From Gammaproteobacteria bacterium (GTDB lineage: Bacteria; Pseudomonadota; Gammaproteobacteria; SZUA-229), in the NCBI GenBank assembly GCA_030595185.1, contig JAUVDT010000013.1, forward strand, positions 1-33,040: a stretch of DNA of 33,040 nt, in the 5' to 3' direction. The notes beneath the pieces were generated by a model. It was given only the letters and a program-made list of their open reading frames with translations. It did no database searches and was not told the origin of the DNA. Positions 5,803 to 15,295 of this stretch are shown piece after piece; positions within the stretch are counted from its first letter, which is position 1, and every line of letters starts with the position of its first letter. The position numbers were made by a program, and so were the translations under genes.

Positions 5803-8800
5803 ATGAGAATTAATGAGCCGGTGACGCATAACGAAGTAGTAATGAAGGAGAGTCAATTCCTTGTTACTAAAACAGATCTGAAAGGCATTATGACTTTCGT
5901 TAACCGTGATTTTATCGATATTAGTGGCTTCAGCCGTGATGAATTAATCGGGAAAAATCATAATGTTGTGCGACATCCTGATATGCCGCCTGCTGCTTTC
6001 GAAGACTTATGGAATACCGTAAAGAATGAAAAGCCCTGGGTAGGAATGGTTAAAAACCGTTGTAAAAATGGTGATTTTTATTGGGTGCAGGCAAATGTCA
6101 CTCCAATTATGGAAGGCGGTCGTCTCTCTGGTTATATGTCGGTACGAAACAAACCCAGCAGAGACAAAGTTGCAGTTGCTGAAAAACTATATGGCGAAAT
6201 GAATGCCGGCAAGATGCCTAAAGCAAGTTTATTTAGTCGCTTAAATATATTTAGTAAAATGAAAATATGGCAGAAACTGGCTTTTGTTGGTTTCATCTTC
6301 TTTGCATTAATTGCAGCATTATCTGTTGAAGTTTACCTGATTACTGATGAAGATATTGTTTTTGCAAATGAGGAAAGAGTCGGTGTCGAATATGTGGTTG
6401 GCATTCGAAAAGTGATGCAAAACATGCCGCAACATAGAGGAATGAGTGCCGCATATTTAAGTGGTAATAAGTCGGTTAAGTCTAAAATACTATCTAAGCG
6501 AAAAGATATTGATGCAGATTTTGCAGCACTAAAATCAATCGATGATCGTTTGGGTGCTGAACTAAAAACAACGGCTGATTTAACTAAAATAATTGATCAA
6601 TGGAATCAATTAAAACAGGAAACTTTACAGTTATCAGGAAAAGAAAGTTTCTCTCGACACACTGCATTATTAGAAGAAGTTATCGCTTTAAATGTAGAAG
6701 TTGGTAATAACTCTAATCTGATACTTGACCCTGAAATTGATAGTTTTTATGCGATGGATTTAATCATAAATCGTGTTTTGCAATTAACTGAAAAAATGGG
6801 TCAAGTTCGAGGTCTGGGTGCTAGTATCATCGCAAAAGGTACCATGTCGGATCAGCAAAAAGAGCGCTTAATTAGGTTAAGTGTTCTAAATGGTGGTTTA
6901 GTTGAAGGTATCGAACTGGCACTTGATTCAGCCTATAAAGCAAACCCTATGATAAAACCTAAGCTTGAATCTTATGCAAGCTCAGTCAATAAAGCATTGA
7001 ATGGGTTTAATAAAAAAGTGGACCTGGTTATATCGGGTAAATTTGCTGGGCTGGATTCTACAGACTTTTTTAGTGATGGTACGGATGCAATAGGTAGTTC
7101 ATTTGCCTTATATGATGCCACTGCACCGGTATTAGACGAGTTGCTTCAAATAAGAATTGATAATTTAACATCGACAGAAGTAACTATTCTAATTTTAATT
7201 CTGATAGGTATAGCAATTGCAATATCTGTTGGATTTGCGATTGCTCGCGATATTTTGACTATATTAAGTGAAACTAATGAAGAGTTTGGTTTCCTCGCAG
7301 AAAATAACTTTAAACGTGATATTGATATTTTACGTTACGATGAGTTTGGAGATCTGCTACGTTCAATGAAAAATATGCAGATTAAACTTGGCTTTAATGT
7401 TAATGATACCAAGGCAACTGCTGATGAAATGATGCAGATTAAGGTGGCTCTCGATAACGTTTCCAGTAGCGTTATGATGGCTGATAACGATAACGTTATT
7501 ATGTATATGAATAGCGCCGTTACAAAATTAATGAAAGAATCTGAGTCTGCTATTAAACACGACTTACAAGACTTTGATGCAGATTCGCTGATAGGAACTT
7601 GTATTGATGTGTTCCATAAAAATGCGGCACATCAACAGCAGCTATTAAAAAATCTGACATCACCTTACACAGCACAAATTGAGGTTGGTGGCCTTATCTT
7701 TAGATTAACGGCTAACCCTGTTGTCAATGATCAGGGTCTACGTTTAGGTACAGCAGTTGAATGGGTCGATAGAACAAATGAAGTGGCTGTTGAAAAAGAA
7801 GTAGAAAATATTGTTCAGGCTGCTAAAGCAGGAGATCTGGATCAGCGACTTGAAATTGCAGGTAAAGAGGGTTTCTTCTTGCAGTTGAGCGAAGGCATCA
7901 ATGAAATGATTGGCACTATTTCAAATAGTTTCAATGATGTGGCTCGTGTTATGCGTGCAATGTCTGATGGTGACCTAACTCAAAAAATCACTGATGATTA
8001 CGAAGGAACTTATGCTGATGTACAGAATGACATTAATGCGACTATTGATAAGTTTGAAGATGTAGTTGGTCAAATTGTAGAGTCGAGTGAATTCTTCAAG
8101 AGCACTAGTGAGGAGATAGCTTCTGGTAATAACAACTTGTCACAGCGAGCTGAAGAACAGGCTTCTACACTTGAAGAAACTGCATCAAGCATGGAAGAGT
8201 TAACCGGTACGGTTAAAAATAATGCCGATAATGCTCAACAAGCTAATCAGTTAGCAGCCAGTGCACGAGGTACGGCTGAAAAAGGTGGTGAAGTAGTTAA
8301 GGAAGCTGTGATCGCCATGGAAGAAATCAATTCTTCCAGTACTAAGATTGCAGAAATCATTGGTGTCATTGATGAGATTGCTTTCCAGACAAACTTGCTT
8401 GCGCTGAATGCTTCGGTTGAAGCGGCAAGAGCTGGCGAACAAGGTCGTGGTTTCGCGGTTGTTGCAACTGAAGTCAGAAATCTGGCCGGTCGAAGTGCTA
8501 CTGCAGCAAAAGAAATTAAAGACCTGATTACTGACAGTGCTGAAAAAGTTGAGAATGGTTCAAAACTTGTTAATGAATCAGGCGAAACCTTAAGTGAAAT
8601 TGTTGCAGGCGTTAAGAAGGTTGGTGACATTATTTCTGAAATTGCAGCGGCTAGTTCTGAACAGTCTGCCGGTATTGATCAGATCAATAAAGCAGTCTCA
8701 CAAATGGATGAGATGACACAGCAAAATGCTGCATTAGCTGAAGAAGCTTCTGCTGCCAGTGAATCATCAGTCTCTAAAGCTGTAGACATGGTTAAGTTAG

Positions 8801-8970
8801 TTGAATTCTTTTCAACAAATACAACCTCTGCAAAAGCAAGCCGTGATGATGAACCAGTAGCTGCTGAAAAAAGGCCGGCTGCAAGTTCTAAACCACAACA
8901 ACGCAGAGCAAAAAATAAACCTGCACCCAGAACCGTCGTAGACGATGATGATGAATGGGAAGACTTTTAA
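5803..8970 (+). CDS. Aer-like PAS methyl-accepting chemotaxis receptor with C-terminal tether
   Basis: This is a 1055-residue chemoreceptor. Residues about 10-115 form an Aer-type PAS domain ([51 protein letters not shown]), which in Aer binds FAD and senses redox state. TM1 is about 153-175. A periplasmic region of about 280 residues follows, with [14 protein letters not shown] resembling nitrate/NIT-like sensors. TM2 is about 459-482, then HAMP, a second PAS-like segment (about 536-660), another HAMP, and the signalling domain with the tip [21 protein letters not shown]. After a K/R/A/P-rich linker the protein ends in EWEDF, a WxxF pentapeptide of the type bound by CheR/CheB. A GGACGGAGAA ribosome site precedes the ATG. 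The ligand is unknown. Confidence 0.93.
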
Positions 8971-9568: not shown

Positions 9569-10327
9569 ATGACTGCAAGGGTGATATCAGTCATCAATCA
9601 AAAAGGTGGCGTTGGCAAAACAGCAACGGCTACAAATTTGGCTCATGGTCTGGCTTTGAAAGGCTATCAAGTCCTGGCAATTGATCTTGATCCACAAGCA
9701 CATCTGGCTTCTAGCCTTGGTATTACTCGTGAAGATATTGCGGGACTAGATGCCGTTTTTTTGAAAGGTATTCCATTACAAAGTGTTCAGATGCAAGTTC
9801 GTGAAAATTTGAAACTTGTCTCTGCTGGTGGACATTTAAATGAAGTGGAAAATCTGGAAGGTGGTAAATCCCGCGGGCTCTTATTAAAAAGAGCGCTGGA
9901 TCAATATAATGATGATGTTGATTTCATAATTATTGATTGTCCTCCATCATCTGGTCTATTGGTAATCAATGCATTGTTTGCAACTGAAGAAGTGCTAATT
10001 CCAATGACAGGTGATTATCTTGCTATGCAAGGTTTGTCACACTTAATGGCTACACTGTCAAATTTTGAAGAGGCTTTACAAAAATCATATCAACAGTGGA
10101 TTGTTTTGAGTCGTTTTCACGACAGGCGACGTCTGGCTCAGGAAGTTAAAGAAAAACTCATTAATTATTTTCCTGATACAGTATTAAAGACATCTATATC
10201 TGAAGCGGCCTCTTTAGCAGAGTGTCCAGGTTTTGGTAAGACTGTCTATGAATACAGGCCTAATAGTAAATCAACAGAAGAGTATACATCTCTAGTTAAG
10301 GATTTGATCTCCGGGAGGGTTTTTTGA
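9569..10327 (+). CDS. ParA/MinD-family ATPase, probable positioner of the chemotaxis array
   Basis: This 252-residue protein is a deviant-Walker-A ATPase of the ParA/Soj type. It has KGGVGKT with signature Lys12 and P-loop Lys17, the A' motif IDLDPQAHLASSLG, and Walker B DFIIIDCPPSSGLL. No N-terminal DNA-binding extension is present, so it is a short (type Ib-like) ParA. It lies inside a chemotaxis operon with no parB or centromere-like repeats nearby. ParC of Vibrio and PpfA of Rhodobacter are chemotaxis-linked ParA proteins that localise arrays, so array positioning is the likely role. Its stop overlaps the next start by one base (TGATG), tying it translationally to the lysine-tailed STAS protein, a candidate partner. 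Confidence 0.85.
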   Translation: MTARVISVINQKGGVGKTATATNLAHGLALKGYQVLAIDLDPQAHLASSLGITREDIAGLDAVFLKGIPLQSVQMQVRENLKLVSAGGHLNEVENLEGGKSRGLLLKRALDQYNDDVDFIIIDCPPSSGLLVINALFATEEVLIPMTGDYLAMQGLSHLMATLSNFEEALQKSYQQWIVLSRFHDRRRLAQEVKEKLINYFPDTVLKTSISEAASLAECPGFGKTVYEYRPNSKSTEEYTSLVKDLISGRVF

Positions 10328-11154
10328 TGGCTAAAAAAAGTACAACAAAGACCACAAAAAAGAAGACCGCAGCAGCGGTTAAAAAAGTACCAGCTAAGAA
10401 AAAAACTGCAACTAAGAAAAAAGCGAAAGCTAAAAAAAGTCCGTTTAAATCCAAGTTGGGTCATGACCCGTTGGCATGGATTACTGGAGATGATGCAACT
10501 GAACTAGGTCTTAGTTTTGATGATATTGAATCAAGCTCAAGTTCTAGTGCACTTGATGAAATTATTCCTGCCGTGCAGGTTGCCGAAGATAGCATTGAAG
10601 TTAATGAGGTCGCTGCTGAGCCTGTTAGTGTAATTGAGCAGAATGTGGCAAGTGAAACTGTTGCTGATACTGCTCCGCCAGTTTCTGATGACGGTTCATG
10701 GGGTTTGTTTGGTAGTAAAGAAGAAACTCCCGTTACAGCGCAATCAGAGACCTCTGATGATGGATCCTGGGGTTTATTCGGGTCAGAAGAAGCTGAAGCT
10801 AGCGATTCATCTACTGATGAAGGTATTGCGTGGGGCTTATTTGAAGATGAGTTAGCTACAGATACAGATATCGATCATGATGCTTTAACAATACATTTAC
10901 CAGCCAGTTTTAATGTTTCAGTAATTTCAAAGGTCTATCATGAGTTTGAAGAAATCATCAGTAAAAATCATGATGTAATTGTTGATGCAAGTGATATAGA
11001 AACTATTGATGCTGTGGGCTTGCAGCTTTTATTTGCAGGTAGAAAAGAATTGCAAAAGAACGGCTGCAAGATGGTAATAAAAGATGGATCTAAACGTGTT
11101 GATTTATTATCAAAGTCTTCATTCATAAATGAACTGATTGGTATTTCAGGATAA
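10327..11154 (+). CDS. STAS-domain protein with lysine-rich N-tail and three WGLF repeats
   Basis: This 275-residue protein is not a textbook Che component. Residues 2-40 are a Lys/Ala/Thr tail like histone H1 or AlgP (STTKTTKKKTAAAVKK and similar). Residues about 48-120 are acidic and disordered. Three repeats then follow at residues 124-128 (SWGLF), 147-151 (SWGLF) and 168-172 (AWGLF), each preceded by an acidic stretch. Residues about 185-275 form a STAS (MlaB-like) domain, TIHLPASFNV...VIVDASDIETIDAVGLQLL. The position equal to the phosphorylated Ser of SpoIIAA is Ala229. GGGAGGG (10313-10319) lies 7 bases before ATG 10327, which decides that start over the TTG just upstream. It is encoded between parA and cheR; function is not established. 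Confidence 0.85.
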   Translation: MAKKSTTKTTKKKTAAAVKKVPAKKKTATKKKAKAKKSPFKSKLGHDPLAWITGDDATELGLSFDDIESSSSSSALDEIIPAVQVAEDSIEVNEVAAEPVSVIEQNVASETVADTAPPVSDDGSWGLFGSKEETPVTAQSETSDDGSWGLFGSEEAEASDSSTDEGIAWGLFEDELATDTDIDHDALTIHLPASFNVSVISKVYHEFEEIISKNHDVIVDASDIETIDAVGLQLLFAGRKELQKNGCKMVIKDGSKRVDLLSKSSFINELIGISG

Positions 11155-11157
11155 ATT

Positions 11158-12003
11158 ATGGCCGTTACTATTAAACCAGACAGGGAATTCTTATTTACTG
11201 AAAAAGATTTTAATTACCTGAGAAAAGTGGCCAATGACTATTCAGGTATTACCGTTTCAGATGATAAATATGACATGTATTATGCTCGCATTGCTAAAAG
11301 AGTAAGAACTCTAGGTGTGGGTGATTTTGCAGGATATTGTAAGTACCTGAAAAACAACCACGCTAAAGAATTTACTAATTTTATTAATTCTATAACAACT
11401 AATTTAACATCGTTTTTTAGAGAAAATTATCATTTTGAATTTATGGTAAGTGATCTAATTCCTGAGTTCAAAAAAAAATATGCTACTAAAAAGTCATTAA
11501 AAATTTGGTGTACTGCAGCCTCTACTGGTGAAGAGCCTTACTCAATTGCAATGACTTTAGCTGAAAATTTTGACTTAAAAGCATGGGATATTAGATTTTT
11601 AGCTACTGATATAGATTCTAATGTACTGACTACTGCACGTAATGGTGTTTATGAAGAGCAACGAATAGCGAATTTAAGTAAAACGCGAAAATCAAAATGG
11701 TTTAGAAAAGGCTCAGGTGAAAATAAAGGTACTGTCAGGGTCGACAAAAAGTTAAGAGAAATGGTTTCATTCAAAAGGTTAAATCTCATTCAGGAGTGGC
11801 CGCTAAAAAATAAGTTTGACCTTATAATTTGTCGTAACGTATTTATTTATTTTGATGGGCCAACAAAAGAAATGATCCTTGAAAGATATCATGATTTATT
11901 AAATGACGGAGGTTATTTAATACTTGGGCATTCTGAATCTATTCATTCAATGAATACAGACTATGAAACAATAGGTCATACAATATATAGGAAAACTATT
12001 TAA
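11158..12003 (+). CDS. cheR: Chemoreceptor methyltransferase CheR
   Basis: CheR transfers methyl groups from S-adenosylmethionine to receptor glutamates. The 281 residues comprise an N-terminal helical domain and a C-terminal SAM domain with IWCTAASTGEEPYSIAM (about 115-131), FLATDIDSNVL, and FDLIICRNVFIYFD followed by LILGHSESI. The beta-subdomain loop reads FRKGSGENKGTVRV, which aligns without gaps to the glycine-containing loop of enteric CheR (FMRGTGPHEGLVRV). That loop is a feature of pentapeptide-binding CheRs. This agrees with the EWEDF tail of the receptor in the same operon and with the three WxxF repeats just upstream. It starts 3 bases after the STAS gene. Confidence 0.96.
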   Translation: MAVTIKPDREFLFTEKDFNYLRKVANDYSGITVSDDKYDMYYARIAKRVRTLGVGDFAGYCKYLKNNHAKEFTNFINSITTNLTSFFRENYHFEFMVSDLIPEFKKKYATKKSLKIWCTAASTGEEPYSIAMTLAENFDLKAWDIRFLATDIDSNVLTTARNGVYEEQRIANLSKTRKSKWFRKGSGENKGTVRVDKKLREMVSFKRLNLIQEWPLKNKFDLIICRNVFIYFDGPTKEMILERYHDLLNDGGYLILGHSESIHSMNTDYETIGHTIYRKTI

Positions 12004-12004
12004 T

Positions 12005-12634
12005 ATGGCTCTGAGTAGTGATAAACATCGAATTCATAAAGCATTACCTGATTTTTCTAGTATTAAACGCTATTGGGATAAAACTAATAACTGTGTGGCT
12101 GCAAAAATATTACCAGGCGAATATTATGTGTCTGTTACTAATGAGTTAATTACTACGGTGTTGGGTTCGTGTATTTCGGTTTGTATTCGTGATGCTAAGA
12201 ATGGCATCGGTGGTATGAATCACTTTATGTTACCCAAAGATAATAATGTAAGTGATAGTATTGTTAGTGAGGCTGCCCGTTATGGGAACTTTGCAATGGA
12301 ACATTTGATTAATGATATTTTACATTATGGTGGCGAGCGTAAAAACCTGGAATTCAAAGTGTTTGGTGGTGGTAAGGTTCTTGATATGAAGATGGATATT
12401 GGTAAAAAAAATATTGAATTTGTATTTGAATATCTTAAATTGGAAAGGTTTTCCATACTTTCTGAAGATGTAGGAGATGTATATCCAAGAAAAGTGAATT
12501 TTTTTCCATTATCTGGTGTCGCTAAAGTTAAAAAACTGAAAAAACTACATAATCAAACTATTATTACTAGAGAAAATACGTATCTTGAAAATATTAAAAA
12601 TGCACCTGTTGAAAGTGATATTGAGTTATTTTAA
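12005..12634 (+). CDS. cheD: Chemoreceptor glutamine deamidase CheD
   Basis: CheD deamidates specific receptor glutamines and, in some species, is held by CheC-type proteins. This protein has 209 residues, somewhat long for the family because of an N-terminal extension and a C-terminal tail. The catalytic Cys56 lies in ELITTVLGSCISVCIRD, and His73 lies in GIGGMNHFMLP. Both match the Cys-His pair of CheD, and the FGGG block (VFGGGKVLDM) follows. It starts one base after the cheR stop and ends 17 bases before cheB. No cheC is present in the window, so any CheD partner must be encoded elsewhere or be different. Confidence 0.95.
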   Translation: MALSSDKHRIHKALPDFSSIKRYWDKTNNCVAAKILPGEYYVSVTNELITTVLGSCISVCIRDAKNGIGGMNHFMLPKDNNVSDSIVSEAARYGNFAMEHLINDILHYGGERKNLEFKVFGGGKVLDMKMDIGKKNIEFVFEYLKLERFSILSEDVGDVYPRKVNFFPLSGVAKVKKLKKLHNQTIITRENTYLENIKNAPVESDIELF

Positions 12635-13743: not shown

Positions 13744-13764
13744 AATTTAAAGGGAATTTTGTAT

Positions 13765-14976
13765 TTGTTACTAGAATTTAAAAAATATTGGATAGCCTTA
13801 TCAGTAAGTTTAATTGTATTGCTGTATGGCCTTCTAGCGACAAAATTTAATTACAATATCTTTTTAATTGTTATTATAATTTTAAGCTGGATGATTAATG
13901 TTTATATTGTATATAAATTTAATCTTAAAGAGTCGTCAGGATTATCTGCGCCGAAAAATAGTACTGAGAGTAACACTGAAAAGTTGTCTGAAAAAATATC
14001 TGAATTATCAGACTTAACTAAAGGTGAAATGAGTGCGCTTAAGGAGAGTATTGAGCAGGTCAATAATCTGGTGCTAGATGCTGTTTCAGGACTTGGCATT
14101 AGTTTTACAACATTAAGCAACGAGACTCGCTCACAAGAGCAGTTAATCATGAGTCTTATCACTAATATGGCTGGTTCAGGTGATGACTCTGGTACTATTA
14201 CTATTAAACAATTTGCAAATGAAACTAATGAAATTTTAAACTATTTCGTTAAAAACATCATTGATGTTAGCAAAGAAAGTATGGTCATGGTTCATACTAT
14301 TGATGACATGGTTATCAATATGAACGAAATCGATAAATTGCTAGCTGATACTAAAATAATAGCGGATCAAACTAATTTACTGGCTTTGAATGCAGCAATT
14401 GAAGCCGCTAGAGCAGGTGAGGCTGGACGAGGATTTGCCGTAGTAGCGTCAGAGGTTAGAGATTTATCAGTAAGATCAAATCAATTTAATGAAAGAATCA
14501 AAGCTGCTGTTCATCGTGCAGTAGATGACATGGGTAAAGCACAATCTATAATTTCTGATATAGCCTCGAAAGATATGAGTGTCGCGATTAAATCGAAGGA
14601 TCGCGTGGATGAAATGCTGGATAGCTTAAATGATATGAATTTATTTATTGCTAATAAATTAGGTGAAGTTAGCAGTATTACGGAAAGTATAGAAACAGGA
14701 GTTAATGGAGCGGTACAGTCACTTCAGTTTGAAGACATTATTCGGCAATTGTGCGAATATATTGCAAATCATCTTGATCAGATTGGTCATAGCTATGATT
14801 TAATGCATTCAAAGCTTACTGATTTAGACCTTAAAGATGATGACCCTGAAAAAATAATGGAAGTATTGTCATTAGTAAATAATATGCTATATGACGATTT
14901 AGAAGATATTAAACATAATAAAAGACAAACAGTACAGCAAGGTAGTATGGACGAAGGTGCTATCGAGTTATTCTAA
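13765..14976 (+). CDS. Small membrane MCP-like protein with CheZ-like DxxxQ motif
   Basis: This protein of about 403 residues has two membrane helices at its N-terminus ([18 protein letters not shown] and [19 protein letters not shown]), almost no periplasmic loop and no HAMP domain. It has an MCP-type signalling hairpin, [21 protein letters not shown] followed by [18 protein letters not shown]. Near the C-terminus is [14 protein letters not shown], with Asp324 and Gln328 spaced as in the CheZ active site (DFQDLTGQ). It lacks sensor domains and a WxxF tail, so it may be an accessory or phosphatase-like array protein rather than a receptor. The start is not ATG: TTG 13765 lies 9 bases after AAGGGA, while TTG 13759 in the same frame is only 3 bases away. 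Confidence 0.8.
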
Positions 14977-14989
14977 TGTGGAGAAATAG

Positions 14990-15295
14990 ATGTCAATAAG
15001 TATACAAAAATCGGATGATGGTAAAGAAATTACGATTAAGATCGATGGTCGATTTGATTTTGGCTCGCATCATGATTTTCGTGATGCATATCGAGGTGCA
15101 ACTGAGTCAGGTACTATCTTTTCACTAGATATGTCAGATACTGACTATATGGATAGTTCTGCTTTAGGAATGATTTTATTACTTAAAGAGTACTCAAGTA
15201 CTTTAAGTGGTGATATTAAAATCATAAATGTAAATTCAGAAATTAAAAATATTCTGAAAATAGCAAATTTTGATAAGCTTTTTAGTGTTTCGTAA
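14990..15295 (+). CDS. Single-domain STAS protein (anti-sigma-factor-antagonist type)
   Basis: This 101-residue protein is a lone STAS domain of SpoIIAA/RsbV type. Residues 14-25 form the first strand (ITIKIDGRFDFG). DTDYMDSSALGMILLL carries the phosphorylatable position Ser56, aligning with Ser58 of SpoIIAA. The partner would normally be an anti-sigma-like Ser/Thr kinase, but none is encoded in the window. It follows the MCP-like gene by 13 bases with TGGAGAA as ribosome site. It is the last gene of the operon and converges on mltF 22 bases later. It differs from the STAS domain at 10327-11154, which has Ala at the same place. Confidence 0.88.
   Translation: MSISIQKSDDGKEITIKIDGRFDFGSHHDFRDAYRGATESGTIFSLDMSDTDYMDSSALGMILLLKEYSSTLSGDIKIINVNSEIKNILKIANFDKLFSVS

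Follow-up and report, generated by a model that had tools for sequence, protein, structure and literature searches.

Three WGLF repeats in the linker of a ParA-linked STAS protein of an F7-type chemosensory cluster: a candidate docking motif confined to one lineage

The tether pentapeptide of chemoreceptors is NWETF in E. coli Tar and Tsr, and the tail of P. aeruginosa Aer2/McpB is also a tether; for ATPases of the ParA/MinD kind, a partner protein binds the ATPase and stimulates its activity, linking it to cargo. Described tethers terminate a receptor; when Salmonella CheR is in complex with NWETF, contact is made by Q182, R187, G188, G190, G194, and R197 (PMC2577667). Outside positions 2 and 5, the consensus of such tethers is mostly acidic (PMC7390727). 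In stage-1 F7 chemosensory clusters, a tether pentapeptide is carried by an Aer2-like receptor (Ortega et al. 2020, PMC7184735). The partners of ParA/MinD ATPases have been described as binding via a positively charged, disordered N-terminus, and in Halothiobacillus a ParA-family protein positions chemotaxis clusters (PMC10241942).

The window analyzed here, a stretch of 33,040 nucleotides from a gammaproteobacterium of the lineage SZUA-229 (GCA_030595185.1, contig JAUVDT010000013.1), holds a cluster in the order cheY, cheA, cheW, receptor, cheW, parA, STAS, cheR, cheD, cheB, McpA-like receptor, and STAS (Table 1). In common with stage-1 F7 clusters (PMC7184735), it has cheY, cheA, two cheW genes, a receptor with an xWxxF tail, cheR, cheD, cheB, an McpA-like receptor, and a STAS gene, and both gene content and order correspond except for the serine phosphatase. 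Unlike those clusters, the window has parA and a long STAS gene inserted ahead of cheR, lacks the terminal serine phosphatase, and has flagellar genes upstream (fliJ, fliK, and a FliI-type ATPase gene); the next gene downstream, on the opposite strand, encodes SBP_bac_3 (solute-binding) and SLT (transglycosylase) domains and not a serine phosphatase. A word search of PMC7184735 returns no mention of ParA. Our literature search found no ParA-STAS pair in such a chemosensory cluster, which is no proof of novelty, and no ParA partner with a STAS cargo part and a DPLAW motif. The ParA-type positioning of chemosensory arrays is of a known kind, of which the WGLF-bearing ParA-STAS pair would be a variant.

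Table 1. Positions of the features discussed, numbered within the window.
Feature	Position	Strand	Remarks
Chemoreceptor in Aer2 position	5803..8970	+	PAS, NIT, HAMP, MCP signal domain
EWEDF tether pentapeptide, C-terminus of that receptor	8953..8967	+	Translated ORF
ParA-family ATPase	9569..10327	+	Pfam AAA_31, 1.7e-43; overlaps STAS gene
STAS protein, 275 aa	10327..11154	+	ORF; ATG overlaps parA stop; Pfam STAS, 1.4e-07
Lys-rich N-terminal tail	10327..10452	+	19 K/R in the 45 residues preceding DPLAW
KLGHDPLAWIT motif	10453..10485	+	Conserved among ParA-linked STAS proteins
Repeat 1, SWGLF	10696-10710	+	Residues 124-128 of STAS protein, in frame
Repeat 2, SWGLF	10765-10779	+	Residues 147-151 of STAS protein, in frame
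Repeat 3, AWGLF	10828-10842	+	Residues 168-172 of STAS protein, in frame
STAS domain	10864..11100	+	Pfam match; phospho-Ser position is Val (DAVG)
CheR methyltransferase	11158..12003	+	Pfam CheR, 3.7e-61; aligned with Salmonella CheR 1AF7/1BC5
CheR beta-subdomain loop KGSGENKGTVR	11707..11739	+	K, G, G, G, R at the places of Salmonella R187, G188, G190, G194, R197
CheD C-terminal IELF tail	12620..12631	+	Alternative model for WGLF
McpA-like receptor C-terminal IELF tail	14962..14973	+	

The long STAS protein is composed, in order, of a Lys-rich tail, a GHDPLAW motif, an acidic linker with the three WGLF repeats, and the STAS domain. As the ATG at 10327 and the parA stop codon overlap as TGATG, this ATG is a likelier start than the TTG at 10324 given in the list of open reading frames. 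SpoIIAA-type anti-sigma antagonists, which are STAS proteins, carry a phosphorylated Ser in a D-S-S-G type motif; that phosphorylatable Ser is absent here, with DAVG in the window protein and DATG in its congeners. The cluster's second STAS protein (14990-15295) retains MDSSALG. A catalogue of 24 DPL[AS]W-STAS proteins, 3 with and 21 without the repeats, defines the constant part of the family as GxDPL[AS]W followed by the STAS domain. A Lys-rich stretch is usual and may lie on either side of the motif: it comes after the motif in g10, and no K or R precedes the motif in L120 and L121. These two and L122 (genomes G507, G487, and G581) are relatives from the same phylum but outside the class, each with GHDPLAW, a STAS domain, and a ParA neighbor; in a phylum-wide search with the DPLAW pattern they were the only relatives, most other matches being to proteins or frames unrelated to the family. 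When plasmids were searched with the STAS protein as query, there was no match.

The linkage of this family to ParA is close to complete. A parA gene overlaps or adjoins the STAS gene for 22 of the 24 catalogued proteins and lies about 200 bases upstream, with GGVAKT, for another (23/24 in all); the last member is at a contig end. At one locus, L144, the parA-STAS pair is kept together, though moved apart from cheR. The window protein resembles the ParA/MinD partners ParB, McdB, Vibrio ParP, and Rhodobacter TlpT in being encoded beside the ATPase, by a gene that overlaps the ParA gene, and in having a basic N-terminal tail, a feature not universal among its relatives, with a separate cargo part. 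It is unlike them in that the cargo part is a STAS domain and in its DPLAW motif. On the basis of gene order and of these known partners, the STAS protein probably acts as partner to the ParA encoded next to it and contributes to positioning the array.

The three WGLF repeats are genuine and beyond chance. Counted from the ATG at 10327, their sequences, residue numbers, and spacing (23, then 21 residues) are exactly those given in the first-pass annotation, which had also rightly called the surrounding region acidic: residues 61-180 contain 30 D/E, 1 K/R, and 7 aromatic residues. When this linker is shuffled, at least three WxxF arise in 3 of 200,000 trials and three WGLF in none of 200,000. 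Among the 25 proteins of the window (9,632 aa), xWxxF is found only in the three repeats and in the C-terminal EWEDF of the Aer2-position receptor, whose last residues are DDDDEWEDF, so that the annotation's remark that a receptor of the same operon ends in this pentapeptide also stands. A literature search for WGLF returned unrelated abbreviations only.

Conservation within the genus can be read from a three-species alignment of the window protein with those of the two cluster-bearing congeners, G002 (L016/L004) and G001 (L005); a third congener, G003, has neither this ParA nor this CheR. All three repeats are retained in both, and the W and F positions, whose conservation among homologues the annotation had proposed to check, are invariant. 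Indeed, G and L are kept as strictly as W and F: within this one genus, a small sample of three species, 12/12 WGLF columns are invariant versus 22/85 in the remaining linker. Codon comparison at the 36 WGLF pair-sites shows 17 synonymous differences and no replacement (Fisher p 1.5e-13, computed on pair-sites that are not independent of one another), and purifying selection thus acts on the repeats. It could be speculated that spaced aromatic motifs in an acidic linker adjoining a strongly basic tail act as stickers for a condensate-like self-association of the adaptor, with basic tail and acidic linker pairing electrostatically. Stickers, however, do not require the exact order W-G-L-F, and the strict invariance of G and L points to a shaped pocket instead, which leaves this explanation highly improbable.

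Outside the genus, the repeats disappear. Within the order, 3 of 54 genomes show the WGLF pair pattern, and these three belong to the same genus; among 369 genomes of the class the sole further match has an in-frame stop codon. No linker of the 21 other catalogued proteins, nearly all of which are encoded beside parA, contains WxxF, and a role of the repeats as a general family trait is thereby ruled out. Their repetition and their invariance in a fast-changing linker nevertheless lead us to infer a docking role, and we give an even chance to the proposal that they constitute a multivalent docking motif, confined to one lineage, on a putative ParA adaptor.

Placed into the context of the cluster, this suggests a model in which the STAS protein would serve as adaptor of the ParA encoded upstream, and the pair would position the F7-type array. 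The GxDPL[AS]W motif and the Lys-rich stretch would likely form the ParA or nucleoid side of the adaptor, and the linker and STAS domain the side facing the cargo. Three equal WGLF short linear motifs would have been acquired by the acidic linker in one genus, and through them a cluster component would dock multivalently onto the adaptor. That the STAS adaptor and its ParA position the array while WGLF docks such a component is, as a whole, about equally likely to hold or to fail. ParA or an array component had been named as an alternative partner of the repeats in the first-pass annotation; with the gene linkage, the ParA connection fits the protein as a whole better. The repeats themselves might, for instance, be extra, degenerate copies of DPL[AS]W that strengthen binding to the putative target of that motif, most likely ParA. 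In both sequences, [AS]W leads into hydrophobic residues amid acidic surroundings (DPLAWITGDD and GIAWGLFEDE), and DPLAW accompanies ParA across the family, but the repeats lack D-P-L and the motif lacks G-L-F, and such an origin appears very doubtful.

One candidate for the docked component is CheR, encoded by the next gene. At the six Salmonella contact positions, the window CheR has S, K, G, G, G, and R; on this basis, with four of six contacts retained together with R187K, it can be regarded as of the pentapeptide type, and its GxG loop is as the annotation had described it. The repeats, all of which match the tether pattern x-[HFYW]-x-x-[HFYW], could then be internal copies of the CheR/CheB tether, such that as many as three molecules of CheR (or CheB) would sit on the ParA-positioned complex, with the adaptor as scaffold or decoy. 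W2 and F5 are invariant in all nine copies from the three species, and the acidic flanks are reminiscent of the receptor tail. Shared with the Tar/Tsr and Aer2/McpB systems are the x-W-x-x-F pattern, its flexible, acidic surroundings, and a CheR of the pentapeptide type in the cluster. Unlike those tethers, the repeats are triple, sit on a non-receptor protein, and are limited to one genus; they are also internal, lying within residues 124-172 of a 275-aa protein and not at the extreme C-terminus of a chemoreceptor, where described tethers are found (PMC2577667). Moreover, position 1 is S, A, or G, position 3 is G, and position 4 is L in all nine copies, so that the acidic residues expected outside positions 2 and 5 are missing and an invariant, neutral G-L core stands where the consensus (PMC7390727) and the clusters' own EWEDF and EWEEF tails are acidic.

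Relatives without the repeats weigh further on this question. In the sister genus the receptors terminate in DWEEF or EWEEF, tails also read in g4 and g9, and where CheR was read in repeat-free ParA-STAS clusters it also has the GxG loop, except at L029 (GRRKQEG). Some of these CheR proteins, the loop having been read for part of the loci, carry D or N in place of G194. As receptor tail and CheR loop occur without the repeats, the repeats are not part of a general CheR/CheB docking in the family; a pairing of the repeats with a special CheR loop is likewise ruled out, since this loop type is shared by clusters that have the repeats and clusters that lack them. The annotation's proposal of a CheR/CheB scaffold or decoy is thus upheld in the invariance of W and F among congeners, the mostly conserved CheR contacts, and a resemblance beyond chance, and weakened by the absence of the repeats outside the genus despite tail and loop, by their internal position, and by G-L in place of acidic residues. 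We consider the tether interpretation unlikely. The more specific scenario, in which a ParA cargo adaptor evolved a triple internal tether mimic so that CheR or CheB is held multiply on the array-positioning machinery and not on receptors alone, is slightly less likely still; if WGLF does bind CheR or CheB, a physical link would join the adaptation enzymes to array positioning. Since the STAS and cheR genes are in the same frame, the pair was also folded as a read-through fusion (10327-12000, TAA read as Gly), and the model, from three sequences, has a mean pLDDT of 40.8 and a pTM of 0.27, values too low for any conclusion on docking. A scan of viral contigs for further CheR sequences found none. 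The second CheR of the genome (L128:10091-10924, G000:C14) is without the GxG loop, with KGVRAQQGV; the receptor adjoining it ends in FERFS, which is not a tether.

Similarly, the repeats can be compared with a C-terminal [IVF]ELF tail that these clusters' CheD, McpA-like receptor, and small DxxxQ (CheZ-like) proteins have in common, and which is found in the window and at L010, L016, L025, L026, L027, L029, L043, L053, L124-L127, and L144. It is conceivable that the repeats represent the [IV]ELF tail in internal form and bind a putative partner in common with it: the final L-F is identical, both have a hydrophobic residue three places before the final F, each motif is preceded by acidic and Gly residues, and the tail is carried by three kinds of protein in these clusters. 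Against this, the repeats have W where the tails have I or V and G where they have E, and the ELF tails are C-terminal, unlike the repeats. As WGLF has L-F in common with the tails and W..F in common with the tether, the sequence by itself does not decide between these two explanations; we judge the ELF one to be decidedly improbable. According to Ortega et al. (PMC7184735), the McpA C-terminus is highly conserved and without a known role, and that of P. aeruginosa has V as its second residue and does not bind CheR; the [IVF]ELF tail may be relevant to this observation. In the McpA-like receptor at L016:11332-12540, orthologous to the window receptor at 13759-14976, a CheZ-like D-x-x-x-Q stretch (LQFEDISRQL) lies towards the C-terminal part.

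Returning to the docking model, our analysis points to a family of ParA-linked STAS adaptors for F7 arrays in which GxDPL[AS]W and the STAS domain are constant and the linker variable. The linker is the site at which lineages insert differing modules, WGLF repeats here and a globin domain in another genus. The latter is genus g5 (L068:575-1519 in G007; L045 in G018), where the ParA-partner STAS protein has the globin domain (Pfam PF00042, 7.3e-14) between DPLAW and STAS, and where a second globin-like ORF follows the globin-STAS gene.
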